From: Kineococcus aurantiacus
Lineage (GTDB): Bacteria; Actinomycetota; Actinomycetes; Actinomycetales; Kineococcaceae
Length of the DNA stretch: 64,000 bases
Direction of reading: 5' to 3'
Assembly (NCBI RefSeq): GCF_013409345.1
Contig: NZ_JACCBB010000001.1
Location: 1,488,001 to 1,552,000, forward strand
Of this stretch, positions 39,951 to 60,736 are shown one piece after another. Both the position numbers and the translations under genes were made by a program. Within the stretch, counting starts at the first letter, position 1. The number at the start of each line of letters is the position of its first letter. The notes beneath the pieces were generated by a model that made no database searches, was not told the DNA's origin, and saw only the letters and a program-made list of their open reading frames with translations.

Positions 39951-40763
39951 TCAGCGGGCGAGGGCCCCCAGGTCCGCCAGGACCGCGCGAAGGTGGCGGG
40001 TGGACTCCTCGGACGGCACGGTCGGGAAGTACTCCAGGCCCACCGGGCCGTCGTAGCCGGCCGCGGTCAGCGCCCGGAACGTGGCGGCCCAGTCGATCGA
40101 CCCTGTGCCCGGTTCGCCGCGGCCGGGGGCGTCGGCGACCTGCACGTACCGCACGAGCGGGCCGGCCTGGGCGAGGACCTGCACGAGGTCCTCGGACTCG
40201 ACCCGGGAGTGGTAGACGTCCAGCAGGACGCCGAACTGCGGGGAACCGACGGTGCGGGCGACGTCGAGCGCGTCGGCCGTGCGGTCCAGCAGCGTGCCGG
40301 GGTGGTCGACGCGGGTGTTCACCGCCTCCAGGACCAGCACGACACCGGACCCCTCGACGAGTTCCAGGGCGCGGGTGTAGATCCCGGCGAGCTCGTCGTG
40401 CTGCTCCTGCCGCTTGCGGCCGCCGAACCCGGTGCCGCCCTGCACGACGATGCGCGGGCACCCCAGGTCCGCCGCGATGCGGGCCCCCTCCTCGATGCCC
40501 CGGTAGAAGTGGCTGTGGTCCTTGGGCGGGATCATGAACTGGGTGCGCGGTTCGGCCAGCTGGGCCTCCAGCCGCACCCCGGTCTCCTGCAGGGCGTCCT
40601 TGAGCGCCGCGAGGTCCTTGGGCTTGGCGGGCGCGTCCTTGCCGGTGGGGCCCCACATCTCCACCGAGGTGAAACCGGCGGCGGCCGCGGCGCGGACGCG
40701 GTCGTGGTAGTCGCCGTGCTCGGTGAAGAGCAGTTCGATGTTCGGCGCGAGCCGGTGGGTCAC
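39951..40763 (-). CDS. Hydroxypyruvate isomerase-like TIM-barrel protein
   Basis: A 270-residue cytoplasmic protein of the xylose isomerase-like TIM-barrel family, closest in pattern to hydroxypyruvate isomerase/OtnI. It shows LAPNIELLFTEHGDYHDR at the start, metal-ligand glutamate in VLVLEAVNTR, aspartate in VLLDVYHSRVE, a QVADAPGRGEPGTGSIDW strand and the final GLEYFP. The reaction is probably an aldose-ketose or keto-sugar isomerisation. The GTG at 40763 has GAGGAGAG upstream. It follows the C-deglycosidase-like genes on one transcript, suggesting work on the released (oxidised) sugar. Confidence 0.82.
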   Translation of the reverse strand: MTHRLAPNIELLFTEHGDYHDRVRAAAAAGFTSVEMWGPTGKDAPAKPKDLAALKDALQETGVRLEAQLAEPRTQFMIPPKDHSHFYRGIEEGARIAADLGCPRIVVQGGTGFGGRKRQEQHDELAGIYTRALELVEGSGVVLVLEAVNTRVDHPGTLLDRTADALDVARTVGSPQFGVLLDVYHSRVESEDLVQVLAQAGPLVRYVQVADAPGRGEPGTGSIDWAATFRALTAAGYDGPVGLEYFPTVPSEESTRHLRAVLADLGALAR

Positions 40764-40791
40764 GGGTTCTCTCCTCTGGTCGGGGGGGGGT

Positions 40792-41184
40792 TCAGGCGGA
40801 CAGTTCCACCGCGGCCCGGGCCCGGCCGCCGCCGGGGACGGGCATGTACGAGATGCGCAGGCGCTGGCTGACCTCGACGTCGTGCATGCCCGGGGCGAGC
40901 CCGCCGGGGTGGGCGACGGCCACCGTCGCGACCTCGCCGAGCTCCCAGCGGTCCTCGACGACCTCACCGAGGCCGGTCAGCGGGTAGCTGTTGCCGTGCA
41001 CCGTGAAGGTCGTGCGCTCGGGGGCGGCGCGGACGCCGTCGACGGTGACCGCCACGTCCTCGACCATGGACAGGCCCAGGCCGCGGTAGTAGGGCATCCG
41101 CACACCCAGCTCGAACCCGGTGGTGCGGCCGTCCTCCACGACGTTGCGCAGGGTGCCGGGGACGATGACGTACTTCTCGAACAC
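40792..41184 (-). CDS. C-glycoside deglycosidase beta subunit-like (DUF6379)
   Basis: A 130-residue protein matching, from memory, the small beta subunit of bacterial C-glycoside deglycosidases (CarB/DfgB type, DUF6379). It contains KYVIVPGTLRNVVEDG, GVRMPYYRGLGLSMVEDVAV, TVDGVRAAPERTTFTVHG and a C-terminal QRLRISYMPVP. In the known complexes this beta-sheet subunit completes the active site of the TIM-barrel alpha subunit. The GTG at 41184 follows GAGGAG. The candidate alpha subunit gene ends 10 bp upstream. The family assignment is good; C-deglycosylating activity is inferred. Confidence 0.78.
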   Translation of the reverse strand: MFEKYVIVPGTLRNVVEDGRTTGFELGVRMPYYRGLGLSMVEDVAVTVDGVRAAPERTTFTVHGNSYPLTGLGEVVEDRWELGEVATVAVAHPGGLAPGMHDVEVSQRLRISYMPVPGGGRARAAVELSA

Positions 41185-41194
41185 GGTCGTCTCC

Positions 41195-42184
41195 TCAGTT
41201 CTCGTGCCGGGCCAGGAGGCGCTCGAGCATGGCGTGGTGCCGGGTGACCTGCTCGACGGAGTCGACCGGGTGGGCGTCCTGGATGTGCCGGTTGCCCTCG
41301 TACTCGCTGGACAGGCACCCGGAGAAGCCGCCCTCGACGAGGACGTCGACGATGCGGTCGTAGGGGATGGAGTACTCCGTCCCCTCGTCGGTCATCTCGT
41401 AGAACTTGGCCTGGACGTGGTGGGTGCGGTGGATCTGCTCCAGCAGCATCCGCGGGTCCCGCCACGTGTAGTGGGTCGCCTGCCGCGCCAGCCCCACCTC
41501 GACGGGACCACCGCCCAGGTAGTTCACGGTGTCCATGAGGCCGTGGACGTCGCCGTGGTCGTCGTAGGTCTTCACGACCAGGTCGACGACCTCGGGCCGG
41601 GCGCCCTCGCGCAGCGCGCGCTCGGAGGCCACGCGGGGGAACCGCTCGACGAAGCACCCGAGGTCGGGCATGAACCCCAGCGCGGGGCTGTCGAGGGCGT
41701 CCATGACCTCCAGGTGCCGCAGCACCCACGGGTGGGCGTAGTGGAAGGGGGCGTGCACCTCCAGCAGCAGCTGCACCCCCGCCTCCTCGGCGTACGGGGC
41801 CGCGTCGCGCAGGACCTCCGCGGGGGTGCTGATGATGGCGCGCAGCTTGGTCGTGCCGAGCCGCACGGCGAGGTCGACGTCGCGGCGCACCGAGGCGACC
41901 TGCTCGTCGTGGGTGAGCCGGCGACCGGGGTGGCGCAGGGTGTCGAGGAAGAAGTCGTAGGCCAGCGGCCGGGTGCCGAACTCGGCCATCGTGTCGTGCC
42001 AGTCGCGGACCCACTCGTCGCTGACGTGCGGGAACCCGGGGATCGACTGCTCGGGGATGATCTCGATGTCGAGGGCACCGATCTTCGCGGCGACCGCGAC
42101 GGCGTCGCGCACCGTCATGGTCCGCAGGAAGAACTCCTCCTGGAAGCTGTACAGGCTCACCCCGCGGGTGATGCGGTGGCTCAT
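41195..42184 (-). CDS. C-glycoside deglycosidase alpha subunit-like TIM-barrel protein
   Basis: A 329-residue xylose-isomerase-like TIM barrel. Candidate metal ligands are Glu142 (LLLEVHAPFHY), Asp174 (GFMPDLGCF), His256 (THHVQAKFYEM) and Glu294 or Glu296 (LSSEYEGNRH). It begins SHRITRGVSLYSFQEEFFLR, like CarC/DfgA catalytic subunits that cleave the C-C bond of 3-keto C-glycosides with a bound metal. The DUF6379 partner follows 10 bp later, the arrangement of known deglycosidase pairs. The ATG at 42184 overlaps the symporter stop in an ATGA, so uptake and cleavage are coupled. The true substrate is unknown. Confidence 0.78.
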   Translation of the reverse strand: MSHRITRGVSLYSFQEEFFLRTMTVRDAVAVAAKIGALDIEIIPEQSIPGFPHVSDEWVRDWHDTMAEFGTRPLAYDFFLDTLRHPGRRLTHDEQVASVRRDVDLAVRLGTTKLRAIISTPAEVLRDAAPYAEEAGVQLLLEVHAPFHYAHPWVLRHLEVMDALDSPALGFMPDLGCFVERFPRVASERALREGARPEVVDLVVKTYDDHGDVHGLMDTVNYLGGGPVEVGLARQATHYTWRDPRMLLEQIHRTHHVQAKFYEMTDEGTEYSIPYDRIVDVLVEGGFSGCLSSEYEGNRHIQDAHPVDSVEQVTRHHAMLERLLARHEN

Positions 42185-43623
42185 CGGACGTCCTCCGGGG
42201 ACTGGTGGGGGCGGGAGGGGTGGGTGGGGACGGTGACGCCGGACGGGACGTCGGACGGGGCGCCGGACGGGACGTCGGACCAGAGGAGGACGACGACGGC
42301 CTGGGCGGCGACGAGGACGACGGGCGCCAGGAGGTACAGGGCGCTGATCGTCCCGGCGGCCGAGCCCGGCACCGCCGGGTCGTAGCCGGCCCCGGCGAGG
42401 GCGTAGGCGACGGCGGCCGCGCCGAGCGCCGACCCCACCTTCAGCGCGAAGCTGACGCTGGCCGACACCAGCCCCTCGTCGCGGCGGCCCGAGACCCGTT
42501 CCTGGTGCTCGACGGCCTCGGCGACCATCGTGAACATCGAGGTCATGGACAACCCGATGGCCAGCGTCGCCACGGCGTAGACCGCGACGAACACCCCGAA
42601 GCGGGACTCGACCAGGCTCAGCGCGGCCCACCCGGTCCCGCCGACGGCGAGGGCGAGCAGGTTCCCGCGGCGGATGCCGAGACGGCGGTAGTACCGCGGG
42701 GCGAGCAGGCCGCCGACGAGCATGGCGCCGGAGACGAGGGGCAGCAGGATCGAGATGGCCGACGGCCGCTGCAGCACGACGAGGGCGTAGTAGACGGTGA
42801 CGGCCAGCACCAGGCCGAGGCGGACGAAGTTCAGCACGCCGTAGACGGACGTCACGACCCACGCGCGGTTGCGCAGCAGGCCCCGCAGGCTCGCGCGCAG
42901 GTCCGCCCTCACGTCCCCCCTCGCGTCCAGGGCGACCGGCTCGGCCGCGACCGCGTGGCGCTCGCGGCACCCGGCGAAGGTGCAGGCGAAGAAGACGATG
43001 CTGAGGGCGCTGTAGAGGACGGTCGCGACGGTCCAGCCGTGCTGCCCGCCGCCGAGGGCGGCGACCAGGGGGGTGGTGGCGGCGGTGACGACGATCGTCC
43101 CGACGGAGGAGCCGACGCTGCGCAGCGCGCCCAGCTGCATCCGCTCCTCGCGGTCGCGGGTCATCATCGGCATGAGCGCGCTGTAGGGGACGTTCACCAG
43201 CGAGAAGAGGATGCCCAGCGTCAGGTAGGTGACGAAGGCGTAGACGAGCTTGCCGGTGTCGCCCACGTCGGGGACGGCGAACGTGAGGACCCCCAGGACG
43301 CCGAAGGGGACGGCGGCGAACAGCAGGTAGGGCCGCGCCCGGCCGAACCGCGTGCGGGTCCGGTCGACGAGCACCCCGATGAAGGGGTCGATCACGGCGT
43401 CGAGCAGGCGCGCGACGAGGAACAGGGTGCCCAGCAGGGCGATCGGGACCCCGGCGACGTCGGTGTAGTAGAAGAGCAGGAAGGAGCCGACGAAGTTCCA
43501 GGAGAGGTTCGAGGCGAGGTCACCGGCCCCGTAGGCGAGTTTCTCGCGGCGCCGCAACCGCGCGGGGCCGGCAGGGGCGGGGGCGGGCGGGGCGACGGTG
43601 CTCCGCACCGGCAGGTGGGTCAT
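42181..43623 (-). CDS. GPH-type sugar/glycoside symporter (MFS)
   Basis: A 480-residue transporter with 12 membrane helices of the glycoside-pentoside-hexuronide:cation symporter group (MelB-like). The N-terminal LRRREKLAYGAGDLASNLSW, the helix VARLLDAVIDPFIGVLVDRT and the cytoplasmic RTRFGRARPYLL loop are diagnostic. The ATG at 43623 follows a GGAG-type site. It is the first gene of the four-gene minus-strand operon with the deglycosidase-like pair, so it probably imports the phenolic C- or O-glycoside. A 29-bp element shared with the ABC importer genes lies 60 bp upstream. Confidence 0.9.
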   Translation of the reverse strand: MTHLPVRSTVAPPAPAPAGPARLRRREKLAYGAGDLASNLSWNFVGSFLLFYYTDVAGVPIALLGTLFLVARLLDAVIDPFIGVLVDRTRTRFGRARPYLLFAAVPFGVLGVLTFAVPDVGDTGKLVYAFVTYLTLGILFSLVNVPYSALMPMMTRDREERMQLGALRSVGSSVGTIVVTAATTPLVAALGGGQHGWTVATVLYSALSIVFFACTFAGCRERHAVAAEPVALDARGDVRADLRASLRGLLRNRAWVVTSVYGVLNFVRLGLVLAVTVYYALVVLQRPSAISILLPLVSGAMLVGGLLAPRYYRRLGIRRGNLLALAVGGTGWAALSLVESRFGVFVAVYAVATLAIGLSMTSMFTMVAEAVEHQERVSGRRDEGLVSASVSFALKVGSALGAAAVAYALAGAGYDPAVPGSAAGTISALYLLAPVVLVAAQAVVVLLWSDVPSGAPSDVPSGVTVPTHPSRPHQSPEDVR

Positions 43624-43790: not shown

Positions 43791-44465
43791 TCAGGTCCCG
43801 TCGGGGGTGAGCAGGAAGGAGGAGACCATCGAGGCCAGCCGTTCCACCATGACGTCGACCTCGGGCCCGGAAGCGCCCTCGACGGTGCTGCCCAGGCCCA
43901 GCCGGCGGGCGATGACGCTGTAGACGACGGTGTGGCACCAGTGCACCGCGGCCTCGGGGTCGGCGCGGCGGATCTCCTCGCGGTGGCGCAGCAGGCCGTC
44001 GCAGAAGGCGGCGACCTCCCGCTCGGAGGAACGCCGGCCGGCCCGGGCCACCTCGGGGTCGTGGACCGCGCGCAGCATGAAGGGCCGCAGGACGCCGGCC
44101 TCGGCCTGCAGCAGCCGGGCCAGGGCCGCGACGAGGGCGCTGACGGTCCCGGTGAGCGTGGGGTGCCCGGCTGCGGCCTCCCCCAGGGCGGTGAGGGTGG
44201 CGGCGTCGATGCGCTCCAGCTCGCGCTGGTGGACGAGGCGCAGCAGGGCGTCCTTGCCGCGCACGCGGCCGTAGATGCTCCCGGTGGAGACCCCGGAGCG
44301 TTCGCTGACCTCGGCCAGGGTGAAGGAGTCGTCACCCCGCTCGCGCAGGAGCGACAGGGCCGCGTCCTGGACGCGGGCGAAGGACTCCTTGCTGCGGGCC
44401 TGCAGGGGTTCACGGATCGCGGGGGGCGTCTCGACGCCGGAGGTGGGGAGTTTCGGTTCCAGCAC
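43791..44465 (-). CDS. TetR-family regulator
   Basis: A 224-residue repressor. The helix-turn-helix lies at about residues 25-70 (VQDAALSLLRERGDDSFTLA, EVSERSGVSTGSIYGRVRGK, DALLRLV). A ligand-binding helical domain with LLQAEAGVLRPFMLRAVHDP follows. The GTG at 44465 is the first start consistent with the family; the frame is open upstream without similarity. It diverges from the flavin reductase-monooxygenase-GH3-oxidase operon, whose promoter carries a palindrome over the transcription start, so it likely represses that operon until a glycoside or aglycone is present (inference). Confidence 0.85.
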   Translation of the reverse strand: MLEPKLPTSGVETPPAIREPLQARSKESFARVQDAALSLLRERGDDSFTLAEVSERSGVSTGSIYGRVRGKDALLRLVHQRELERIDAATLTALGEAAAGHPTLTGTVSALVAALARLLQAEAGVLRPFMLRAVHDPEVARAGRRSSEREVAAFCDGLLRHREEIRRADPEAAVHWCHTVVYSVIARRLGLGSTVEGASGPEVDVMVERLASMVSSFLLTPDGT

Positions 44466-44505: not shown

Positions 44506-44549
44506 TTGACGCGGCGGGAGGCCCGGCCTACAGTTCCGAATGCACATTC
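44506..44549 (+). promoter_or_regulatory. Promoter and TetR operator of the glycoside operon
   Basis: TTGACG (44506-44511) and TACAGT (44529-44534) with a 17-bp spacer form a near-consensus promoter. The inverted repeat GAATG-CA-CATTC (44538-44549) covers the expected transcription start and would be an ideal repressor site. The flavin reductase ATG follows 52 bp later. Confidence 0.75.
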
Positions 44550-44601
44550 TGATTCCACTCCGTTCGGTCCCGGCACCGTCGCCACCACCGGAAGGCCCGT
44601 G

Positions 44602-45150
44602 ATGCTCGAGCCCACGACCGCTCCCCCACCCACCCCGCTGCGCCCCGCGGACGTGTCCGACCCGCGCAGCTTCCGCACCGTCCTGGGCCACGTCCCCACC
44701 GGCGTCACGCTCATCACCACCGGCCCCACCGGCGGGTCCACCGACGGGCAGCCCACCGCGGCGATGGTGGTCGGGACCTTCGGGTCGGTCTCCCTGGACC
44801 CGCCGCTGGTCTGCTTCCTGCCCGACCGCGCCTCGACGACCTGGCCGGTGGTCCGCGCCCACGGGCGGTTCACCGCCAGCGTCCTGGGCGCCGGCCAGCT
44901 CGACGTCTGCCGCGCCTTCGCCCGCAAGGAGGACGACCGCTTCGAGCGGTTCGGCTGGCACCGCACCGCGACCGGCGGCCACGTCGTGCCCGGCGCCGCC
45001 GCCTGGGTGGACTGCGAGGTCCACGACGTCCTGCCCGCCGGGGACCACGACGTCGTCCTGGCCCGCGTCCTGGCCCTCGGCGCGGACCCCGACGTCCCGC
45101 ACTCCCTCGTCTTCTCCCGCGGCGCCTACGGCGCACCCGCCCCGCTCTGA
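44602..45150 (+). CDS. Flavin reductase-domain protein
   Basis: A 182-residue FMN-binding flavin reductase of the two-component monooxygenase type. Typical segments are FRTVLGHVPTGVTLITTG, TAAMVVGTFGSVSLDPPLVCF, SVLGAGQLDVCRAFARKEDD and the C-terminal LVFSRGAYG. It supplies FMNH2 with NAD(P)H. The next gene, 29 bp downstream, is an FMN-dependent monooxygenase, the natural partner. The ATG at 44602 follows GGAAGG; a GTG one codon earlier is possible. It is the first gene of the TetR-divergent operon. Confidence 0.88.
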   Translation: MLEPTTAPPPTPLRPADVSDPRSFRTVLGHVPTGVTLITTGPTGGSTDGQPTAAMVVGTFGSVSLDPPLVCFLPDRASTTWPVVRAHGRFTASVLGAGQLDVCRAFARKEDDRFERFGWHRTATGGHVVPGAAAWVDCEVHDVLPAGDHDVVLARVLALGADPDVPHSLVFSRGAYGAPAPL

Positions 45151-45179: not shown

Positions 45180-46286
45180 ATGCGCTTCTCGCTGTTCCTC
45201 ACCACCCGTTCCACCGCCCCCTCCGAGGACCGCGCCGTGATGGACGCCCTCGTCGAGCACGTCGACCGCGGGGCCTCCCTGGGGTTCGACGCGGTGTTCC
45301 AGCCCGACCACCACTTCACCGGCTACGCGCCCCAGGCCAGCGACCCGTTCGTGTTCGCGGCCTACCTCGCGGCCCGGCACCCCGAGCTCTGGTACGGGTT
45401 CTCCGTGCAGACCGTGCCGCTGCACCACCCCGTGCGGTTCGCCGAGCGCCTGGCCCTGCTCGACCAGCTCACCGACGGCAAGCTCCTCGTGGGCGTGGGA
45501 TCGGGCACCACGCCGGAGGAGTCCATCGGGTTCGGCGTGAACTTCCAGGACACCAGCCGCCTGTCGCAGGAGAACCTCGAGATCGTCGGCCGGCTGTTCG
45601 CCAAGAAGCCCGAGGACGAGCCCGTCCAGTTCTCCAACTCGCACTACTCCGGCGCCGTCGTCAGCCGCATCAGCCCTGCGCCGTACGGGAACCGCACGCC
45701 GACGATGATGCCCGTCGCGGCCCGCCCCTCCAGCACCGAGCGCGCCGCCCGCCTGGGCCAGCCCGCGTTCATCCTGAACTTCCTGCCCCCGCAGCAGATG
45801 ACCCCGGAGAACCCGTTCGAGGTGTTCGCGGAGTCCTACCAGCGCTACCGCACGGCCCTGGAGGCGCAGGGCCACCCGCAGGCCGTCGTCGACCACGCCC
45901 TGGACTGGACCACCCACAGCTACCAGTACGTCCACCTCGCCGAGACCGACGAGCAGGCCGAGGCCGAGCTCGACGTCCTCCTGGGGCAGTACCAGCGCAC
46001 CGTCGAGCGCGAGTTCGTGGCGAACAAGAAGGCCGAGGCCATCAGCGGCGTCGACCTGCGCGAACCCACCGACGGGACGACCCCGGAGTGGAAGCGCGTG
46101 TGGTGCCTGCACGGTTCCCCCGAGACCGTCACCGCCAAGCTCAAGGAGTACGCCGACCTCGGCGTGGGGAACCTCCTGGGCGGTTTCATGGGCGGTCCGC
46201 TGACCCCCGAGCGCCGCCGGGCCACCGACCAGTCGATGCGGCTGTTCGCCGAGCGGGTCATGCCGAACTTCCGGAACAGCAAGTGA
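45180..46286 (+). CDS. LLM-class FMN-dependent monooxygenase
   Basis: A 368-residue luciferase-like monooxygenase. It shows FSLFLTTRSTAPSEDRAVMD, the FDAVFQPDHHFTGYAPQAS active-site strand, VQTVPLHHPVRFAERLALLD, GKLLVGVGSGTTPEE and the C-terminal LGVGNLLGGFMGGPL. It uses FMNH2 from the reductase encoded just upstream to oxygenate a substrate, here probably an aromatic aglycone or glycoside (inference from the operon). The ATG at 45180 follows GGAGG. It overlaps the GH3 gene in a GTGA. Confidence 0.87.
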   Translation: MRFSLFLTTRSTAPSEDRAVMDALVEHVDRGASLGFDAVFQPDHHFTGYAPQASDPFVFAAYLAARHPELWYGFSVQTVPLHHPVRFAERLALLDQLTDGKLLVGVGSGTTPEESIGFGVNFQDTSRLSQENLEIVGRLFAKKPEDEPVQFSNSHYSGAVVSRISPAPYGNRTPTMMPVAARPSSTERAARLGQPAFILNFLPPQQMTPENPFEVFAESYQRYRTALEAQGHPQAVVDHALDWTTHSYQYVHLAETDEQAEAELDVLLGQYQRTVEREFVANKKAEAISGVDLREPTDGTTPEWKRVWCLHGSPETVTAKLKEYADLGVGNLLGGFMGGPLTPERRRATDQSMRLFAERVMPNFRNSK

Positions 46287-52253: not shown

Positions 52254-53432
52254 GTGAGCACCCACGACACCACCTCGCCCCGCACCCCCGCAGCGCCCGT
52301 CGACCTCGGCGCCTCCTGGCCGGGCGACACCGGGAGCGACCGTGCCCCGACACCGGTGCGCACGCCGCCGGAGGGCGCGCACGCCCTGGTGGTCGGCGCC
52401 ACGGGCATCACCGGTTCGGCGCTGGTGCGCCAGCTCCTGGACGCCGGGTGGCGCACGACGGGCCTCTCGCGCCGCCCGCCCGCCGACGAGCGCGCCGCGC
52501 ACGCAGCGGCCGACCTGACCTCGCGGTCGTCGCTGGAGCAGGCGCTGGCCGACCTGCGCCCGACGCACGTCTTCATCGGTGCGTGGGCCAGGCAGGACAC
52601 CGAGGCCGAGAACATCCGCGTCAACGGCGCGATGGTGCGTGACCTGCTCGCCGTCCTCGGGCCGCAGGGCTCGGTGCGGCACGTCGCGCTGGTCACCGGG
52701 CTCAAGCACTACCTCGGGCCCTTCGAGGCCTACGGCCAGGGCGAGATGCCCGACACGCCGTTCCTCGAGGACGCCGCGCGCCTGCCGGTGGACAACTTCT
52801 ACTACGCGCAGGAGGACGAGCTGTTCGCCGCCGCCGCCCTCCACGGCTTCTCCTGGAGCGTGCACCGCTCGCACACCGTCCTCGGGCACGCCGTGGGCAA
52901 CGCGATGAACATGGCCTCGACCCTGGGCGCCTACGCCGGGGTGCAGCGCCACCTCGGCCGGCCGTTCGTCTTCCCCGGCTCGCGCGAGCAGTGGGACGGC
53001 GTGGTCGACATCACCGACGCCGACCTGCTGGCCGACCACCAGGTGTGGGCCGCGACCACCCCGGCGGCCGCGAACACCGCCTTCAACGTCGTCGACGGCG
53101 ACGTCGTCCGCTGGCGGCGCCTGTGGCCGGCGCTGGCCGCGCACCTGGGTCTCGAGCCGCAGGGCCCGGGCGAGCAGCCGCAGCCGCTGGAGGCTCAGAT
53201 GGCCGGGGCCGAGGACGTGTGGGCCGACCTCGTCGCCGAGCACGGCCTGACCGAACCGGACCTGGCCCGGGTCGCGTCCTGGTGGCACACCGACGCCGAC
53301 CTCGGCCGCCCGATGGAGGTCATCGCGGACATGACCCGCAGCCGCCTGCTGGGCTACACGGGCTGGGTGAGCACCGAGCGCGCCCTCCTGCGCCGCGTCG
53401 ACGCCTACCGCGCGCAGCGGCTCGTCCCCTGA
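52254..53432 (+). CDS. PRISE-type short-chain reductase (enone reductase family)
   Basis: A 392-residue SDR-family protein of the progesterone 5-beta-reductase/iridoid synthase-like (PRISE) group. The NAD(P) motif GATGITG is at residues 48-54. The unusual catalytic lysine and tyrosine of PRISE enzymes correspond to Lys151 in GLKHYLGPFEAYG and Tyr183/184 in NFYYAQED. Members reduce activated C=C bonds of enones. The GTG at 52254 has GGGG ahead; about 40 low-complexity residues precede the Rossmann fold. It lies 148 bp after the TIM-barrel operon and before the padC locus, so it may reduce an enone aglycone such as a chalcone-like phenolic (speculative). Confidence 0.82.
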   Translation: MSTHDTTSPRTPAAPVDLGASWPGDTGSDRAPTPVRTPPEGAHALVVGATGITGSALVRQLLDAGWRTTGLSRRPPADERAAHAAADLTSRSSLEQALADLRPTHVFIGAWARQDTEAENIRVNGAMVRDLLAVLGPQGSVRHVALVTGLKHYLGPFEAYGQGEMPDTPFLEDAARLPVDNFYYAQEDELFAAAALHGFSWSVHRSHTVLGHAVGNAMNMASTLGAYAGVQRHLGRPFVFPGSREQWDGVVDITDADLLADHQVWAATTPAAANTAFNVVDGDVVRWRRLWPALAAHLGLEPQGPGEQPQPLEAQMAGAEDVWADLVAEHGLTEPDLARVASWWHTDADLGRPMEVIADMTRSRLLGYTGWVSTERALLRRVDAYRAQRLVP

Positions 53433-53583: not shown

Positions 53584-54117
53584 TCAGCGGGTGCGGCGGC
53601 CGAGGTCGCTCATCGGCCCGGGTGCGCGATCGTCCTCCCCCCGAGAGCCGTCCTCGGCGTCGAGGACCTCCAGCAGCCGGCCCACCACCGCGACCAAGGC
53701 GGGCAGCGACGCCCGCTCCTCGGCGCTCAGGCGCGCCGCCGCGGACGCCACCGTCGTGGCGCTGGCCCGGTCGTAGCGGGCCAGCAGCGTCAGCGCGGCC
53801 GCGGTCGCGCTGACGCTGACCACGCGCAGGTCGCCGCCGCCGGGGGCGCGTTCGGTGAGCCCGGCGGCGCCGGTCGTGCGCAGCAGGTTGCTGATCGTGG
53901 AGCGCGCCAGCCGCAGCGTCGCGGCCAGCTGGCTGGGGGTCAGCGGCCCGCGCTCGGCCAGGAGCCGCAGGAGCTCGACCTGGGCCTCGGGCAGGTCCGG
54001 CAGGCCGGCCAGCTCCCGGCTGCGCCGCAGCACCTTGCGGCGCAGGGGGCCCAGGAGGACGGAGAGCTCGGCCGCGGGGCCGGCGGCGGGGTCGTCCTGC
54101 ACGTCCCCATCCTGCAC
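53584..54117 (-). CDS. MarR-family regulator of the phenolic acid decarboxylase
   Basis: A 177-residue winged-helix regulator with HTH around residues 50-90 ([34 protein letters not shown]) and a shortened wing ([14 protein letters not shown]). It is divergent from padC with a 47-bp gap, where the -10 box overlaps an inverted repeat. Repression of padC relieved by hydroxycinnamic acids is likely by analogy with other phenolic acid decarboxylase regulators. The GTG at 54117 is used; an internal GTG at 54102 is also possible. Confidence 0.8.
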
Positions 54118-54129
54118 CGGGCGGGTCCC

Positions 54130-54160
54130 TTGACCCCAAGTGGTTTTGTCTGCAAAATCA
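54130..54160 (+). promoter_or_regulatory. padC promoter with overlapping operator, leaderless
   Basis: TTGACC (54130-54135), a 17-bp spacer and CAAAAT (54153-54158) place the transcription start at or next to the padC GTG at 54165, so the mRNA is probably leaderless. The imperfect 20-bp palindrome TG-G-TTTTG-TCTG-CAAAA-T-CA (54141-54160) covers the -10 box and suits the divergent MarR protein. Confidence 0.7.
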
Positions 54161-54164
54161 TCGG

Positions 54165-54689
54165 GTGACGACTCCAGCAGCTCAGGACCACGTCCCCGTC
54201 CAGGACCTCTCGGGGCTGGTCGGGCACCGCCTCACCTACACCTACGCCAACGGCTGGCGGTACGAGATGTACGTGAAGAACGACCGCACCATCGACTACC
54301 GCATCCACTCCGGCATGGTCGGCGGCCGCTGGGTCAAGGACCAGGAGGTCGACCTCGTCCTGCTCGACGAGGACAGCTACAAGCTCTCCTGGAACGAGCC
54401 GACGGGCACGTCGGTCGTCGTCAACGTGATGCCCGGGCGGCGCCGCCTGCACGGCACCATCTTCTTCCCGCGCTGGGTCGAGGAGGACGGCACCAAGACG
54501 GTCCTCTACCAGAACGACCACCTGCCCCTGATGCGCAGCTACCGCGACGCCGGGCCCACGTACCCGATCCACGTCGTGCCGGAGTTCGCCCGGATCACGT
54601 CCTTCGAGCACGTCGGGACCGACGACGAGAGCGTCATCGCCACCGCCCCCGGCGACCTGCCCGCCGGCTCCACCGACCAGGAGGACTGA
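54165..54689 (+). CDS. padC: Phenolic acid decarboxylase
   Basis: A 174-residue cofactor-free lipocalin-fold enzyme decarboxylating p-coumaric, ferulic or caffeic acid to vinylphenols. It matches the PadC family closely: [59 protein letters not shown] and [15 protein letters not shown]. Expected catalytic residues are present: Tyr25, Tyr27, Tyr33, Arg46 and Glu78. The length is normal. The GTG at 54165 appears to be at the transcript's 5' end. It is divergent from its MarR regulator and followed 2 bp later by a hydrolase gene. Confidence 0.95.
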
Positions 54690-54691
54690 CC

Positions 54692-55519
54692 GTGGAACCC
54701 GAACCCCTGCCGGGCCCCGCCCCGGACCGCACCCACCGGGTCGGCACCTCCGACGGGCTCACCCTTGTCGTCCACGCCTGGGACGCCCGCGCGACCGACC
54801 CCGGGACCGGCCCCGGCGCCCACCCGGTCCTGCTGCACCACGGGTTCAGCGCCAGCGCCCTCGTGGAGTGGCCGCGCACCGGGCTCGTCCACGCGCTGCT
54901 CACCGCCGGGCGCCGCGTCCTGGCCCTCGACGCCCGCGGGCACGGCGGGTCGGACAAGCCCCACGACCCGGCGCGCTACGGCGAGGCCCGGATGGCCGCC
55001 GACGTCGTCGACGTCCTCGACGCCCTCGACGTGCCCGTGGTCGACCTCGTCGGGTACTCCATGGGTTCCGTCGTCTCGCTGCTGGTCGCCTCCGCGCACC
55101 CCGGGCGCGTGCACCGCCTGGCCGTGGGCGGCGTCGGCGCGGGGATCGTCGAGGTCGGCGGCGTGGACACCCGCGCCCTGCCGGCCACCCGCCTCGCCGA
55201 GGCGCTGCGCTCACCGGACCCCGAGGCGATCACCGACCCCCTGGTGCGGGGTTTCCGCGAGTTCGCCGAGCAGACCGGCAACGACCTGCTCGCGCTGGCC
55301 GCCCAGGCCGACGCCGTGCACGCCGCGCCCCTCGCCCTGGACCGGATCACCGCCCCCACCCTGGTGCTGGCCGGCGACGCCGACCCGCTCGCCGAACGCC
55401 CCGAGGTGCTCGCCGGCGCCGTCCCCGGAGCCCGCCTGCAGCGGGTGCGCGGCGACCACGGGCAGGCGTTGCTCGACCCGGGGTTCGCCGCCTCGATCAC
55501 GGGGTTCCTGGACCGCTGA
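54692..55519 (+). CDS. Alpha/beta-hydrolase
   Basis: A 275-residue serine hydrolase. The nucleophile is Ser123 in LVGYSMGSVVSL. The acid is Asp229 or Asp231 in LAGDADPLAE and the base is His256 in RGDHGQAL. HHGFSAS provides the oxyanion loop. The GTG at 54692 is 2 bp after padC, so the two are co-transcribed. A feruloyl/cinnamoyl ester hydrolase feeding PadC with free hydroxycinnamate is attractive but inferred. Other lipase-like roles remain open. Confidence 0.88.
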   Translation: MEPEPLPGPAPDRTHRVGTSDGLTLVVHAWDARATDPGTGPGAHPVLLHHGFSASALVEWPRTGLVHALLTAGRRVLALDARGHGGSDKPHDPARYGEARMAADVVDVLDALDVPVVDLVGYSMGSVVSLLVASAHPGRVHRLAVGGVGAGIVEVGGVDTRALPATRLAEALRSPDPEAITDPLVRGFREFAEQTGNDLLALAAQADAVHAAPLALDRITAPTLVLAGDADPLAERPEVLAGAVPGARLQRVRGDHGQALLDPGFAASITGFLDR

Positions 55520-55569: not shown

Positions 55570-55573
55570 GTGC

Positions 55574-56905
55574 TCAGCCCTTGTCGTACGCGGCGTCCAT
55601 GGCCGTGAGGACGTCGGCGGTCGTCGTCTGGCCCGTCAGCAGACCCTGGACGCCGGTGCCGAGCGCGTCGGTCACCGCGCCCGAGCTCCACGTGATGTAC
55701 CCCAGCGGGGCCTGCTTGGACTGGTCGGCCAGCAGGTCGGAGATGCCCGACAGCTGCTCGGGCACGCCGCCGGCCCCCTCGGCGGACAGCGACGTCAGGG
55801 ACAGGTTCCCGGAGATCTTCGCGAAGGCGTCCTGCTGGGCGGGCTGGGTGGCGAACTCGACGAACTCCTTCGCCGCCTCCAGGTGCTCGCTCTCGGCCGA
55901 GACGGCGATCGCGTTGGACGTCGTGACGGTCAGCCGCGTGTCGTCGGCGGTCGCCCCGGGCGGGACGGCCACCCCGAACTCCTGACCGGGGGTGGCGGCG
56001 CTGATCTCGGTCACCGCACCGCCGGGGGCGAAGATGCCCAGGGAGGACCCGCTGGTCAGCGCCTGGGTGATCTCGGGGAAACCCGCACCGGCGACACCGT
56101 CCTGGAAGCACCCGGCCTGGTTCATCGACACGATCGCGTCGAGCGTGCGCTTCCACTCCGCGCTCCCGGCGAAGGTGACCTTCCCGTCGGCGCGCTGGGC
56201 GTTCCAGTCCGGCTCGGCCGCGTAGACGGAGCTGGAGGCGAACTCCATCGTCATGAGCGACAGGTTCCCCGGGTTGGCGCCGGCGACCGCGAACAGCGAC
56301 TTGCCCTGACCGCGCACCGTGGCGCACTGCTGCAGGAGCTCGGGCAGCGTCGTCGCCGGGCTCAGACCGGTCGCGGTGTAGGCCGTCCGGTTGATGATCT
56401 CGGTGCTCGGGGACACGTCCAGCGGCACCGCGTAGACCTCGCCGTCGGTCTCGAAGAGGTCCTTGGAGCTCTCCGGGACCGCCTCCGCGGCCCAGGACTC
56501 GTCGGTCAGCGGGGCCACCAGGCCCGCGTCGGCCAGCGTCAGCAGGGCGTTGGTGTTCCCCGTCCCGGGCGACCCGTAGAACACGTCCGGGGCGTTCCCG
56601 CCGCGCAGCTGGGTGCGCAGGACGTTGGAGTAGGAGTCGAGCGGGGTCTCGACGACCTCGACCTTGATGTCGGGGTTCTCGGCCTCGAAGGCCTTGGCCA
56701 GGGCGCGGTACGGCCCCTCGCCGCTGGTGGGGGTCTCGGTCGCGAAGCGGATCGTCACGGGGCCGTCCCCGGCGGCGGCGTCGTCCCCCGACGAGCACGC
56801 CGCGGTGGCGGCGGCGACCGCTCCGGCGAGGAGGAGCGCCGCGGCGCGGCGGCGCCGGCCCACGGACCCGGACGAGGAGCGGAACGAGGGTTTCGACGTG
56901 GTCAT
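55574..56905 (-). CDS. Sugar-binding lipoprotein of ABC importer
   Basis: A 443-residue family 1 extracellular solute-binding protein. A long basic signal peptide ends at a lipobox (TAACSSG, Cys37). The body has VTIRFATETPTSGEGPYRAL, NPDIKVEVVETPLDSYSNVL, DVFYGSPGTGN and LVEFATQPAQQDAFAKISG-type C-terminal segments. The ATG at 56905 has GGAGAA before it. Its permeases are encoded at 58799-60595 on the same strand, beyond LysR and an unknown gene. The LysR-type box at 57014-57042 lies 109 bp upstream. An oligosaccharide or glycoside is the expected ligand. Confidence 0.92.
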   Translation of the reverse strand: MTTSKPSFRSSSGSVGRRRRAAALLLAGAVAAATAACSSGDDAAAGDGPVTIRFATETPTSGEGPYRALAKAFEAENPDIKVEVVETPLDSYSNVLRTQLRGGNAPDVFYGSPGTGNTNALLTLADAGLVAPLTDESWAAEAVPESSKDLFETDGEVYAVPLDVSPSTEIINRTAYTATGLSPATTLPELLQQCATVRGQGKSLFAVAGANPGNLSLMTMEFASSSVYAAEPDWNAQRADGKVTFAGSAEWKRTLDAIVSMNQAGCFQDGVAGAGFPEITQALTSGSSLGIFAPGGAVTEISAATPGQEFGVAVPPGATADDTRLTVTTSNAIAVSAESEHLEAAKEFVEFATQPAQQDAFAKISGNLSLTSLSAEGAGGVPEQLSGISDLLADQSKQAPLGYITWSSGAVTDALGTGVQGLLTGQTTTADVLTAMDAAYDKG

Positions 56906-57013: not shown

Positions 57014-57042
57014 GGAAATAGCGGTTCGGCATGGTGCGCATC
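57014..57042 (-). promoter_or_regulatory. Shared 29-bp LysR-type box, copy 2 (binding protein)
   Basis: Minus-strand pattern GATGCGCACCATGCCGA then ACCGCTATTTCC. It lies between the lysR stop and the binding-protein start, 109 bp before the latter. It shares 24 of 29 positions or more with copy 1. Confidence 0.78.
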
Positions 57043-57067
57043 GTCCCCGGTGATGCCGGGGACGTCG

Positions 57068-58012
57068 TCACACGAGGGCGACGGGAGCGTCCTGCGGGAG
57101 CGGGGCGTCGGCCGGCAGGCTGCGGGCGGCGTCGCGGACCAGGCGCCGGAACCAGCGGTGCCCGGCGTCGTCCTGCAGCGACGGGTGCCACCAGGCCGCC
57201 TCGCGCAACGTCGTGCGGGGCAACGGGACACGGACGCGGTGGACGACGTGGAGCAGTTCGGCGCGGGCGACCAGCCGGTTGGGGACGAGGGCGAGCAGGT
57301 CGGTCCCGGCGACGGCGGTGAGCAGCAGCGCGAGGCTGTCGACGACCAGGTCCACGCGCGCCCCCACGACGAGTTCGTCGACCTGGCGGTCGGCGGCGGT
57401 CCCGCCGTGGTCGGCGAAGGCGCGCGCCCAGCGGGAACGCCGCAACTCGTCCTCGTCCAGTCCCCCGCCCGGGCGCGGGGTCCCGCTGATGCACACCCAG
57501 TGGTCGTCGAACAGGTCGGTGCTGGGGATGCCGGACGTCTGGCCGCGGGGGGTGAGGAGCAGGTCGGCCGACCTCAGGGCCGTCTGCGGGTTCTCGATGG
57601 CGGCGGCGTCGACGCTGGTGATCCTGACCTTGACGTCGGGAGCCTCCCGCCGCAGGCGGTCCATGAACAGCGGCGCCAGGACGGCGACGGCGTAGTCGGA
57701 GGAGATGAGGTGGAACTCGCGGGTGGAGTTCCGCGGGTCGAAACCCGGGGTCGGCTTGAGGGTCTCCTCCGCGCGGCGCAGGACGTCGCGGACCCGGGAG
57801 ACGAGGTCCTCGGCCAGCGGGGTCAGCTCGTAGTGGGACCCGACGCGCACGAGCAGCTCGTCGTCGAACTGCCGGCGCAGGCGCCCCAGGGCCGCGCTCA
57901 TCGCCGGCTGGCTCACGCCGATGCGCGCCCCCGCGCGGGTGACGTTCCGCTCGGTCAGCAGCGCGTCGAGGGGCACGAGGAGGTTGAGGTCGGTGTTGAG
58001 CAGGTTGACCAC
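57068..58012 (-). CDS. LysR-family regulator
   Basis: A 314-residue LysR-type regulator. The N-terminal HTH covers residues 5-60 (NLLVPLDALLTERNVTRAGA, RIGVSQPAMSAALGRLRRQF). The inducer-binding domain follows, with FHLISSDYAVAVLAPLFMDR and LLTPRGQTSG. The start is a GTG at 58012. The gene sits inside the minus-strand ABC importer locus, and three 29-bp boxes precede the importer's two transcription units and the GPH symporter. It is therefore the probable activator of glycoside uptake. Confidence 0.9.
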   Translation of the reverse strand: MVNLLNTDLNLLVPLDALLTERNVTRAGARIGVSQPAMSAALGRLRRQFDDELLVRVGSHYELTPLAEDLVSRVRDVLRRAEETLKPTPGFDPRNSTREFHLISSDYAVAVLAPLFMDRLRREAPDVKVRITSVDAAAIENPQTALRSADLLLTPRGQTSGIPSTDLFDDHWVCISGTPRPGGGLDEDELRRSRWARAFADHGGTAADRQVDELVVGARVDLVVDSLALLLTAVAGTDLLALVPNRLVARAELLHVVHRVRVPLPRTTLREAAWWHPSLQDDAGHRWFRRLVRDAARSLPADAPLPQDAPVALV

Positions 58013-58076
58013 GAGGCGCTCCCGACGTCGTCGTCCGGCTCGGACCCGGCGGTCCGTCGTCTGGGGCAGGACGGTA

Positions 58077-58802
58077 TCAGAAGAAAGCTTCTGATTCTAG
58101 GGATCCGAGGAGGTCCGCCTCCCCGGCCACGACCTCCAGGCCCAGCCCCCCCGGCGACGTCCACCGGCGGACGGCGGTCCACCGGTCCGAGCCCACGCGC
58201 AGCCCCGCCGCACCGCCCGGCGCGCTGCGCAGCCGCGGCCCCTGCCCCCGGCCCGGCGCCGCCCAGCCCACCGGCGGCACCCCGAGCACCCACGACGTCC
58301 AGCGCTCCAGGGCCTCGTCCGGGACCGGCACGTCGACCCCCAGCACCAGCGGCGGGTCCTGCACGCACAGCCGCGTGCTCCCGTCCGGGTGCAGCGGGCA
58401 GGTCAGCGCCGCCCCCGCCACCCACTCCCGGTCCTGGCGCCAGTGCAGCAGCGTCTCCGCTCCCCCCGGGTGCACCACGCGGTAGTCCTCCCCGGCCCAG
58501 CCGGAGGAGACGACCGCCCCCTCCAGGCCGGCCCGGCCCTCCACGACCCCCACCATCCGCCGCAGGTGGTCACCGTCGACCGGGCGCCACGTCAGCCGGG
58601 TCACGGCCGCGCGCGGGCCCGGGCGCAGCACGACCCGGCAGCCGTGCGGGTCCGTGCAGGTCCGCAGGACGTGGACGTCCCCTCCCCCCGCCGCGCCGGG
58701 CCCCGGCGACGGCACGAAGCCCAGACCGACCAGCACCTCGGCGTCCGCCCCGGGGGCGGGGGTGCTGAACTCGACCTCCGTCAGCCGCGCCGCGGCACTC
58801 AC
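58077..58802 (-). CDS. Unknown protein coupled to the ABC permease
   Basis: A 241-residue soluble protein that I do not recognise with confidence. The segments SAAARLTEVEFSTPAPGADA, VVLRPGPRAAVTRLTWRPVD and TSPGGLGLEVVAGEAD suggest two beta-rich repeats, vaguely like a VOC (glyoxalase/dioxygenase) fold, but no metal-ligand set is clear. The GTG at 58802 overlaps the permease stop in a GTGA, so it is translated with the importer. Roles in sugar or aglycone chemistry are possible. Confidence 0.6.
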   Translation of the reverse strand: MSAAARLTEVEFSTPAPGADAEVLVGLGFVPSPGPGAAGGGDVHVLRTCTDPHGCRVVLRPGPRAAVTRLTWRPVDGDHLRRMVGVVEGRAGLEGAVVSSGWAGEDYRVVHPGGAETLLHWRQDREWVAGAALTCPLHPDGSTRLCVQDPPLVLGVDVPVPDEALERWTSWVLGVPPVGWAAPGRGQGPRLRSAPGGAAGLRVGSDRWTAVRRWTSPGGLGLEVVAGEADLLGSLESEAFF

Positions 58803-59635
58803 CCCTTGACCCCGCCCGCGAAGCCCTGGATGAACCTCTTCTGCGCCAGCAGGTAGAGCACCAGGACGGGGACCATCGACAGCAGCACCGCGGCGAACAC
58901 CACGTTCCACCGCGACACCAGCGTCCCGACGAAGCTGTACACGACGACCGGAAGGGTCACCGCGTCCGAGCCGTTGAGGAACACCAGCGACGTGAAGAAG
59001 TCGTTCCAGACGATGAGCCCGGCGAGGATGGCGACCGTCCCGGTCGCCGGGGCCAGCAGCGGGAACACCACCCGGGTGAAGATCGTGAACCGGCTCGCCC
59101 CCTCCATCTGCGCCGCCTCCTCGTACTCCTGCGGCAGCGAGCGGGTGAAACCCGAGTACAGGAACACCGCCAGCGGCATGAGCATCCCCGAGTACGCCAG
59201 GACCATCCCCGTGCGGGTCCCCAGCAGGTCCAGGTGCCGCATCGCGCTGTACAGCGGCACCTGCCCCAGCTGCGCCGGCAGGACGATGGCGACCAGGAAG
59301 CTGGCGAACGCGGCCCGGCTCCAGCCGGTCGTGATGCGGGTCAGCGTGAACGCGGTGATCGAGCCCAGCGCGATGAGCACCACGACGCTGCAGCCGGTGA
59401 TGACCGCGCTGTTCAGCGCCCCGGTGACCAGGCTGTTCTGCCCCTCACCGCCCAGGGCCTGCCGGAAACCGTCCACCGTCAGCGGTGAGGCGGGCGAGAA
59501 CGCCGACGTGCTCACCGAGTCCTGCGTCGTCTTCAGCGAGACGTTCAGCAGGATGAGCAGCGGCGAGAAGACGACGAGCGCGGCGAGGACGACGAGGACC
59601 TCGCGGACGGCGGTGCGGCGCGTGTAGCGGAACAC
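58799..59635 (-). CDS. Sugar ABC transporter permease, MalG-type
   Basis: A 278-residue inner-membrane permease with about six helices. The EAA-loop is EYEEAAQMEGASRFTIFTRV, then VFPLLAPATGTVAI, and the typical tail is KRFIQGFAGGVKG. The GTG at 59635 is 3 bp after the upstream permease stop. It pairs with the permease at 59639-60595 and the binding protein at 55574-56905. No ATPase gene is nearby; a shared MsiK-like ATPase is likely (established for many actinobacterial sugar importers). Confidence 0.92.
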   Translation of the reverse strand: MFRYTRRTAVREVLVVLAALVVFSPLLILLNVSLKTTQDSVSTSAFSPASPLTVDGFRQALGGEGQNSLVTGALNSAVITGCSVVVLIALGSITAFTLTRITTGWSRAAFASFLVAIVLPAQLGQVPLYSAMRHLDLLGTRTGMVLAYSGMLMPLAVFLYSGFTRSLPQEYEEAAQMEGASRFTIFTRVVFPLLAPATGTVAILAGLIVWNDFFTSLVFLNGSDAVTLPVVVYSFVGTLVSRWNVVFAAVLLSMVPVLVLYLLAQKRFIQGFAGGVKG

Positions 59636-59638
59636 GGG

Positions 59639-60595
59639 TCACTTCTCCTTGCGTTCGCGGAGCAGCAGCATCTGGACGAGCGCGCACAGCAGCACGATCG
59701 CGGTCATGACCAGGGCCAGGGCCGAGCCGTAGCCGAACCGGCCGTTGACGAACGTCTCCTTGTAGACGCTGGTGGCCAGGGTGTCCGAGGCACCGAACGG
59801 GCCACCGCCGGTGAGGGCCTGCACCTGGTCGAACACGCGCAGCCCCTGGACGAGGATCATCGTGCTGGCCACCAGGATCGTCGGGCGCAGCGCCGGCAGG
59901 ACCACGTGCCGGAAGCGGGACCAGGGACCGGCCCCGTCCATCGCGGCCGCCTCCTCGTTCTCCGGCGGCACCCCGGCCAGGCCCGCGAGGTAGATCACCA
60001 TCGTCAGGCCGATGTGCTGCCACACCATGACCGTCGTGATGGCCGGCACCACCGTGAGCGGGTCCCCCAGCCAGGTGCGCTGCAACGACTCCAGCCCCAC
60101 CGCGCCGAGGACCTGGTTGATCGGGCCGTCCTGCTGGAACAGGAACTTCCAGACGTACGACACCGCCAGCGGGCTGAGGACCACCGGGGCGAACAGCACG
60201 GTGCGCAGCACGTACCGGCTCTTCAGCTGCCGGTTCAGCGCCACCGCGAACGCCATGCCCAGCACGTTGGTCAGGACCAGGAACGCGACCGCGATGACGA
60301 CGGTGTTCAGCAGCGCCCGCAGGGGCGCGGCACCCGTGAGGATCTCCCGGAAGTTCGCCAGACCCACGAACTCCGGCGAGCGGAAACCGTTGAAGTCGGT
60401 GAAGGCGTACGCCGAACCGGCGATCGTCGTGGCGTAGTGGACCGCCGCGATGAGCGCCAGCGCGGGCAGCGACCACCACCAGGCGGCCACCCGCGAGGCG
60501 GCGCGCCGGCGCCGCGGCACGCGCCCGCCCCCACCCGGGGCGGGCGGCGGCACCGAACCGGTGGCGTCGGGCCGGACCGCCGCGGCCGGGCTCAC
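59639..60595 (-). CDS. Sugar ABC transporter permease, MalF-type
   Basis: A 318-residue permease with about six helices and the EAA-loop ENEEAAAMDGAGPWSRFRHV, then VLPALRPTILVASTMI. The N-terminus is proline-rich and cytoplasmic. The GTG at 60595 gives normal length; the frame is open up to a GTG at 60706, which would begin right at the LysR-type box and is less likely. It is the first gene of the permease-permease-unknown-lysR unit. The box at 60708-60736 lies about 113 bp upstream. Confidence 0.88.
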   Translation of the reverse strand: MSPAAAVRPDATGSVPPPAPGGGGRVPRRRRAASRVAAWWWSLPALALIAAVHYATTIAGSAYAFTDFNGFRSPEFVGLANFREILTGAAPLRALLNTVVIAVAFLVLTNVLGMAFAVALNRQLKSRYVLRTVLFAPVVLSPLAVSYVWKFLFQQDGPINQVLGAVGLESLQRTWLGDPLTVVPAITTVMVWQHIGLTMVIYLAGLAGVPPENEEAAAMDGAGPWSRFRHVVLPALRPTILVASTMILVQGLRVFDQVQALTGGGPFGASDTLATSVYKETFVNGRFGYGSALALVMTAIVLLCALVQMLLLRERKEK

Positions 60596-60707
60596 CGGCG
60601 GGACCTGGATCGCTGGGACTGCTGCAGCTCGTGCACGTCGAACTCCCGGGACCTCGTCGTCAGGGTGAAGGCTCTCCCGCCGAGTTTCCGCGAGCGGTGA
60701 CCGCACG

Positions 60708-60736
60708 GGAAATAGTCAGTCGGTATACCCCGCATC
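60708..60736 (-). promoter_or_regulatory. Shared 29-bp LysR-type box, copy 3 (permease operon)
   Basis: Minus-strand pattern GATGCGGGGTATACCGA then CTGACTATTTCC. The conserved blocks GATGCG, ATACCGA and CTATTTCC keep the same spacing as the other two copies, while the intervals differ. It lies upstream of the permease operon and divergent from the DHA2 exporter. Confidence 0.75.

Follow-up and report, generated by a model that had tools for sequence, protein, structure and literature searches.

A likely aryl C-glucoside catabolic locus with a linked monooxygenase-GH3 module in Kineococcus aurantiacus

We analysed a window of 64,000 nucleotides from Kineococcus aurantiacus (contig NZ_JACCBB010000001.1, positions 1,488,001 to 1,552,000; coordinates below are those of the window unless stated otherwise), whose genome measures 5.03 Mb with a high guanine-plus-cytosine content. 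Genes were called by codon usage, and the products of 20 genes in an island at 39951-60736 were scanned against Pfam and NCBIfam (Table 1). Two gene strings diverge from an intergenic region at 44466-44652. The leftward string encodes a TetR regulator, a GPH symporter, the alpha and beta subunits of a C-glycoside deglycosidase (CGD) and a TIM barrel, and the rightward string a flavin reductase, a luciferase-like monooxygenase (LLM), a GH3 protein, a GMC oxidase and two further TIM barrels (TIM2 and TIM3). A third unit at 55574-60490 holds two ATP-binding cassette (ABC) permeases, a family-less gene, a LysR regulator and a binding protein. By gene-call coordinates, overlaps of 4 bases join the symporter to CGD alpha, LLM to GH3, the oxidase to TIM2 and TIM2 to TIM3, and the spacing of the genes suggests that the strings are operons.

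Table 1. Genes and candidate regulatory sites of the island, with the evidence for each assignment
Feature	Position	Strand	Evidence
TIM-barrel isomerase-like protein (hydroxypyruvate-isomerase-like)	39951..40763	-	PF01261, 134 bits
CGD beta subunit	40792..41184	-	PF19906 (CGDB), 134.6 bits
CGD alpha subunit, TIM barrel	41195..42184	-	Solved-structure matches, best 8qvc_A, 353 bits
GPH-family glycoside:cation symporter	42181..43623	-	TIGR00792, 326 bits (cut-off 231)
TetR regulator, divergent from flavin reductase operon	43791..44465	-	PF00440
Candidate TetR operator, 1 mismatch to TCAGAA-N6-TTCTGA	44535..44552	.	Motif search
Flavin reductase, small component	44653..45150	+	PF01613, 122 bits
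LLM, large component	45180..46286	+	PF00296, 154.6 bits
GH3 beta-glucosidase-like protein	46283..48673	+	PF00933/PF01915/PF14310
GMC glycoside 3-oxidase	48694..50220	+	7qf8 568, 7dve 544, 8qve 454, 9fl2 218 bits
IolE-like TIM barrel TIM2, proposed enol-ketose hydratase/dehydratase	50217..51152	+	PF01261; sequence and predicted model
IolE-like TIM barrel TIM3, TIM2 paralogue	51149..52105	+	PF01261; TIGR04379, 84 bits, below cut-off
PRISE enone reductase, likely passenger	52356..53432	+	PF22917; PDB progesterone 5-beta-reductase, 267 bits
MarR - phenolic acid decarboxylase - alpha/beta hydrolase trio, likely passenger	53584..55519	.	Domain scans, distribution
Phenolic acid decarboxylase (PAD)	54165..54689		Within trio
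Alpha/beta hydrolase	54692..55519		Within trio
ABC sugar-type solute-binding protein	55574..56905	-	PF01547
LysR regulator	57068..58012	-	PF00126/PF03466
Candidate operator, exact copy of TCAGAA-N6-TTCTGA	58077..58094	.	65-82 bases upstream of LysR start
Family-less protein between LysR and permeases	58077..58802	-	No Pfam/NCBIfam match
ABC permease	58799..59635	-	PF00528
ABC permease	59639..60490	-	PF00528

An earlier note, made from the letters of this DNA, had read the island as a catabolic set for plant glycosides, and gene calls and domain scans place every gene family that it named within 39951-60736. The C-deglycosidase-like alpha/beta pair is borne out by the CGDB domain and the adjoining TIM-barrel alpha subunit; the beta-family match, on which the note had staked its proposal, lies above the PF19906 cut-off of 27.6 bits. 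The proposed CarA-like oxidase carries GMC domains and has PsG3Ox and CarA as its closest relatives among solved oxidases. All three TIM barrels belong to PF01261, and both importers (the GPH symporter and the ABC set of the third unit) are there. So are the three regulators, of which TetR and LysR are supported as members of the system and MarR is not.

At an E-value of 0.001 or below, the alpha subunit is matched by eight different solved sequences, including, after 8qvc_A, DgpC1 of 9m3b (146 bits), 7bvr_A (119) and 7dnm_A (96), and several of the matching PDB entries also contain DgpB, DgpB1, DfgB or AgCarC2 chains. These partner chains (7bvr, 7bvs, 9m3b, 7dnm) are among the relatives of the beta subunit, whose best matches, 8qvc_B and 8umc_B, are named only DUF6379. 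In AgCGD2 numbering, the metal ligands E147, D179, K271 and E305 and the catalytic residues H149 and E307 are all kept. Judged by its sequence, the window CGD alpha is probably a relative that works like a CGD. The PDB entries 8qvc and 8qve we take to be from the C-glucosyl flavonoid cluster of Deinococcus aerius; if so, that cluster holds the closest solved CGD chains to those of the window, whereas the window oxidase is nearer to PsG3Ox and CarA than to 8qve and 8qvc retains a histidine, His269, that the window protein has replaced by Gln.

The two leading oxidase matches, 7QF8 and 7DVE, are PsG3Ox and MtCarA (PMC11673046; this and all other papers are cited from the portions of their text accessible to us), and matches beyond 8qve reach at most 218 bits. 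The substrate loop of the oxidase reads ASPVP and then RPDLPAD, against ASPVPLADD in PsG3Ox. An FAD-dependent 3-oxidase near a CGD alpha/beta pair, both of the same families, is likewise found in the CarA/CarBC and PsG3Ox/PsCGD systems (PMC8563793, PMC10646112), and the metal chemistry of the CGD pair has been described (PMC8563793). The window differs from these systems in the Gln for His269 and in having LLM, flavin reductase, GH3 and TetR genes in the locus; a term search of the accessible main texts of both papers did not return the word monooxygenase.

A scan of GTDB genomes with CGD alpha gave 87 relatives. The loci of the best 80, none longer than 21 kb, were searched with the 20 island proteins. 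Homologues of the oxidase, the TIM barrels, the symporter, TetR, the flavin reductase, LLM, GH3 and the ABC proteins turn up repeatedly, whereas none of the 80 loci has one for PRISE, MarR, PAD or the hydrolase. We repeated the search at 1e-6 over 96 stretches, namely the 80 loci, 12 extended stretches and four from two congeners with the locus (G005 and G007); some are short, and several stem from a single genome. A separate comparison within the genus covered 11 genomes, including that of the window.

The LLM and flavin reductase genes adjoin, and the LLM has a luciferase (8cbb) and RslO1 (7bip) among its PDB relatives; it is predicted to be a luciferase-type flavin monooxygenase of the two-component kind, carrying out an oxygenation. 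A search of 39 actinobacterial genomes, each the source of one of the 80 CGD loci, at a threshold of 1e-60 gave a match in 17, and the GH3 gene adjoins the LLM gene in every one of them. In 15 the contigs with LLM and with CGD have the same length, and in one (G469) a near-identical length; we take each of these 16 pairs to be one contig, on which the two genes lie 2-34 kb apart, with distances calculated by hand. In the seventeenth, G468, whose assembly is fragmented, the LLM lies on a different contig. The LLM stop codon overlaps the GH3 start by 4 bases in 16 of the 17 genomes and in all three of the genus, together 19 of 20 loci. Tallied over the 17 genomes, for which unequal amounts of sequence were available, are the oxidase in 16, TetR in 14, flavin reductase in 13, TIM2, TIM3 and the binding protein in 10 each, LysR and the leftward TIM barrel in nine each and the symporter in six. 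Genes of the Arthrobacter group follow the order flavin reductase, LysR, LLM, GH3, TetR (L128, L129, L137); in L130 no flavin reductase gene was called, but a homology search gives a match.

Of the 11 Kineococcus genomes, three (the window's own, G005 and G007) carry CGD alpha; these three also carry the LLM, which is found in none of the eight congeners without a CGD. It was likewise absent, beyond the window's own genome, from 396 background draws from the phylum at 1e-70 and 394 from the class at 1e-60, with at most five candidates scored per genome among the matches shown; CGDB occurs in five of the 394 class draws, again counting the window's own genome. By residue 269 of the query locus, the LLM is present in 17 of 29 Gln-type and in none of 10 His-type genomes. 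The linkage of CGD and LLM recurs in six families with changing gene order. We take these families to be that of K. aurantiacus itself, Geodermatophilaceae, Streptomycetaceae, Pseudonocardiaceae, Streptosporangiaceae and Micrococcaceae. LLM, flavin reductase and GH3 thus look integral to the locus.

An alignment of three congeners revealed a conserved inverted repeat in the intergenic region between TetR and the flavin reductase. With one mismatch allowed, the consensus TCAGAA-N6-TTCTGA hits the window twice (Table 1); when the window was shuffled 100 times, two such hits were reached in 2 cases. The exact site is likewise found upstream of LysR in G005 (L106:3717-3734); in the window it is also the end of the coding sequence of the family-less gene, and because of this overlap its conservation may partly be coding. 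Eight TetR-positive loci of other families, outside the derivation of the motif, served as a test set and contain 3 exact sites, 6 at up to one mismatch and 10 at up to two. All eight loci have a site at up to two mismatches, two of them an exact one, and all ten sites lie outside called gene bodies. For 119 permuted half-sites the corresponding averages are 0.008, 0.06 and 0.55, and 34 loci without a called TetR contain 0 exact sites, 3 at up to one mismatch and 8 at up to two in 667 kb. The motif precedes the flavin reductase (L015, L106, L108), LLM (L017, L018), TIM2 (L011, L014, L015, L018), a homologue of the leftward TIM barrel (L009), CGD alpha (L013, L019), LysR (L106, L128-L130) and a binding-protein gene (L020), while several two-mismatch hits have no such pathway gene beside them. 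We view it as a candidate TetR operator common to the genes of these loci across genera.

TIM2 appears unusually conserved: it is 79-81% identical to its homologues in loci of Streptomyces, Amycolatopsis and Thermocatellispora, where CGD alpha stands at 64-67%. Ten of the 17 genomes with the LLM have a TIM2 match, and the same ten have one to TIM3; one match of each kind, both in Amycolatopsis acidicola, is just 23-24% identical. Both proteins score below the cut-off of 290 bits for myo-inosose dehydratase IolE (TIGR04379), TIM2 at 68 and TIM3 at 84 bits. A predicted model of TIM2, with a mean predicted local distance difference test score (pLDDT) of 89, finds IolE first, and AtHYD and 3-keto-glucoside lyases among its further matches. 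Candidate identities of TIM2 as a CGD alpha or as a true IolE were rejected; in sequence TIM2 resembles IolE only weakly, and the fold match is generic.

Based on these observations, we suggest that the island serves the aerobic catabolism of aryl C-glucosides, and probably of some O-glucosides, and is built of two divergent operons and a linked ABC/LysR unit, in which the LLM would act on the aglycone; we consider this reading likely as a whole. Very probably it is a C-glycoside locus of a known kind that also has a conserved LLM-GH3 module and a candidate operator in common with related loci. Oxidation at C3, elimination to 2-hydroxy-3-keto-glucal and subsequent hydration and reduction have been described (PMC10628242). 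By analogy, the importers would take up the glycoside and the GH3 protein would remove O-linked glucose, after which the GMC oxidase would form the 3-keto C-glycoside and the CGD pair would eliminate the aglycone, leaving 2-hydroxy-3-keto-glucal. TIM2, TIM3 and the leftward TIM barrel may then hydrate or isomerise the keto-glucal towards central metabolism, and the LLM with its flavin reductase would oxygenate the aglycone ahead of ring cleavage by enzymes encoded elsewhere. Bound at TCAGAA-N6-TTCTGA, TetR would keep the units repressed until an inducer derived from the substrate is present. The Agrobacterium GlycDH-OGE-HYD-reductase operon (PMC10628242) resembles this scheme in C3 oxidation, elimination, hydration and the use of TIM-barrel enzymes, with AtHYD among the fold matches of TIM2; it differs in its oxidoreductase and eliminase families, and no Gfo/Idh/MocA match was found among the 20 island genes scanned.

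A number of observations weigh against this reading. The Gln of the window CGD alpha stands at a metal ligand, and replacing H269 by Ala in characterised CGDs makes activity dramatically lower (PMC8563793). An alignment of 143 CGD alpha sequences, some of them sharing a genome, has Gln at position 269 in 39 (the window and 38 others) and His in 104, with the other six checked positions nearly invariant; five solved CGD chains, 8qvc included, have His when aligned by eye. The Gln-type CGDs thereby raise the question of which metal ligands C-C cleavage needs. Many sugar isomerases fit the TIM2 model about equally well. The LLM has no match in 22 of the 39 CGD genomes, the 17 that have it are phylogenetically non-independent, and its predicted model reaches a pLDDT of 71 only; an assignment of its substrate from that structure was rejected, the model supporting only the enzyme class. 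The highest control half-site, GAATCA, gives 1, 6 and 15 sites in the test set, the last figure exceeding the 10 of the real half-site at two mismatches. Ten of the 15 overlap real sites, 3 bases off, and we read this control as mainly the same palindrome in another register; the other five coincide with no real site (L003:14450, L013:5679, L014:9946, L017:9895, L019:5101). A Pseudarthrobacter ring-cleavage cassette has no homologue in the window at 1e-15, and extradiol dioxygenase genes are present in all three CGD genomes of the genus but also in four of the eight without a CGD. As a strict partner of CGD within the genus, the dioxygenase was accordingly rejected.

The LLM could instead act on the sugar side, through a type II Baeyer-Villiger or other oxidation of the 3-keto-glycoside or of 2-hydroxy-3-keto-glucal, making the island a self-contained sugar-harvesting system. 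The 4-base overlap with GH3, the shared gene string with the oxidase, TIM2 and TIM3, the type II Baeyer-Villiger monooxygenase structures among the fold matches of the LLM and the lack of an aglycone ring-cleavage homologue in the window would all fit, and we regard this as an unlikely but serious alternative. The closest sequence matches of the LLM point the other way, being luciferases and RslO1, for which an anthracene moiety has been proposed as the target (PMC7221717). The described oxidation-elimination-hydration-reduction routes require no oxygenase (PMC10628242, accessible text), and within the sequence examined seven of the 17 LLM-positive genomes have no TIM2 or TIM3 match, an eighth having one at 23-24% identity only. 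RslO1/RslO2 of rishirilide biosynthesis resemble the window pair as an LLM and a flavin reductase in one cluster that act on a polycyclic aromatic, and 7bip (RslO1) is a match of the window LLM in both sequence and fold; the identity is low (23%), and the rishirilide system is biosynthetic whereas the window locus is catabolic (PMC7221717).

A second alternative holds that the locus is mainly an O-glycoside system of GH3, 3-oxidase and beta-eliminase, for which C-glycosides are minor substrates or irrelevant. PuCGE cleaves both 3-keto O- and C-glucosides (PMC10628242), and the constant GH3 neighbour of the LLM and the Gln at a metal ligand of known CGDs speak for it too; set against this, both the CGD pair and the PsG3Ox/CarA-type oxidase belong to families characterised on C-glycosides, and we rate it no more likely than the first. 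Still more doubtful, to the point of being very unlikely, is that LLM-GH3 forms an unrelated cassette hitch-hiking with CGD loci. Its absence from 12 of the 29 Gln-type and all 10 His-type genomes tested would be expected of such a cassette; recurring linkage in six families despite changing gene order, the shared candidate operator and the absence of the LLM from CGD-less congeners and background draws argue for its membership.

The earlier note had also extended the pathway into a longer aglycone route. Its monooxygenase stands as a probable step beyond deglycosylation; the enone reductase, phenolic acid decarboxylase, hydrolase and MarR do not, and as pathway steps PRISE and PAD are rejected by their distribution. 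None of the four has a match in the 96 related stretches at 1e-6. In G005 the core adjoins the permease-LysR-binding-protein unit, with one GST-like gene in place of the stretch from PRISE to the hydrolase; G007 has the core only, within the 38 kb examined; and in both congeners the four genes lie elsewhere. Across the 11 genomes of the genus, PRISE occurs in nine regardless of CGD, PAD in four and CGD alpha in three, and in the CGD-less G001 as well as in G005 and G007 the MarR, PAD and hydrolase genes form a trio of their own, away from CGD. Because of this distribution the four genes, attractive as the enone reductase and decarboxylase are by annotation, are most likely passengers and chance neighbours, and the enone reductase/decarboxylase route is probably an artefact of how genes happen to adjoin in a single species. 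That the whole 20 kb nevertheless encodes one route, as the position of these genes between core and ABC unit in this genome might suggest, is the least likely of the alternatives and highly improbable.

To return to a locus for aryl C-glucosides with an aglycone-directed LLM: genes for extradiol dioxygenase, fumarylacetoacetase-like (FAH-like) proteins, FAD monooxygenase and cyclase lie near CGD or LLM in several genera. Ten of the 80 CGD loci contain, within the stretch available, a match to an extradiol dioxygenase at 1e-15 (L016, L020, L023, L037, L041, L056, L057, L063, L068, L071), a figure given without a random-stretch control, and FAH-like and FAD-monooxygenase genes often accompany it. 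These ten loci presumably span Actinobacteria, Bacillota and Bacteroidota, and a wider link between C-deglycosylation and ring cleavage is possible. Such sets resemble the FAD monooxygenase, glyoxalase-family dioxygenase and hydrolase of A-ring flavonoid catabolism (fde and ifc; PMC11069340), from which the window differs in having no homologue of that cassette and in its LLM being a different class of flavoenzyme.

A second CGD locus is present in the same genome at about 3966500-3978000 (L110:8517-20000), with a CGD alpha-like gene, CGDB and a GMC oxidase, and beside them a GPH-type symporter, a ROK protein, LysR, a catechol-2,3-dioxygenase-like gene, an S9-like hydrolase and a cyclase homologue. 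It is because of the ring-cleavage sets in relatives and this second locus that we prefer the aglycone-side role of the LLM, which is unproven. We also entertain, with more doubt than confidence, a broader idea: an aerobic C-glycoside regulon of several actinobacterial families, so far undescribed, in which one type of TetR operator would control deglycosylation, IolE-like processing of the enol-ketose and an LLM coupled to GH3. The LLM would open the released aglycone to extradiol cleavage, allowing full mineralisation of plant C-glycosyl phenols, and the Gln-type CGDs of the regulon would be a type of their own.

In the accessible parts of the published work, aerobic C-glycoside breakdown has been followed up to the release of the aglycone and sugar product (PMC8563793, PMC10646112, PMC10628242, PMC11673046). 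Our literature search returned no paper linking a luciferase-like monooxygenase with C-glycoside deglycosylation, its partial coverage (most subscription papers lay outside) making this weak evidence of novelty; a term search of the accessible text of PMC10807413 gave no mention of monooxygenase, luciferase or operon, and a search on 3-keto-glucose hydratase found nothing. The LLM-GH3 module at C-glycoside loci is apparently undescribed. Tied to the locus by linkage, start/stop overlap and the shared candidate operator, the LLM opens a testable way into the steps after aglycone release and could serve in practice as a marker when such pathways are sought. The window encodes a further luciferase-like monooxygenase at 35455-36600 (PF00296, 213 bits), 3 kb outside the island, which has a homologue near the G005 copy of the locus (L107).

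Among the transport genes, the permease at 58799-59635 has homologues in actinobacterial CGD loci that are mostly 50-59% identical (one 32%), and that at 59639-60490 has homologues mostly at 51-59% (two at 35-37%); an ABC ATPase gene was not found among the genes scanned in the set. Since the LysR directly upstream of the LLM in Arthrobacter-group genomes is 50-53% identical to the window LysR, we tie the third unit to the core. The family-less gene of that unit has a single match among the 96 stretches, a homologue in G005 at 63% identity; a guess by eye that it encodes a VOC dioxygenase was rejected, no Pfam or NCBIfam family matching it. Beside the island, ABC ATPase and NlpA-type lipoprotein genes lie at 37092-39809, as they also do after the core in G005 (L107). 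On its other side, 60882-62315 encodes an MFS_1 transporter with homologues in 6 other of the 44 gene-called CGD loci, G005 included, which may export the aglycone, though the family is common.

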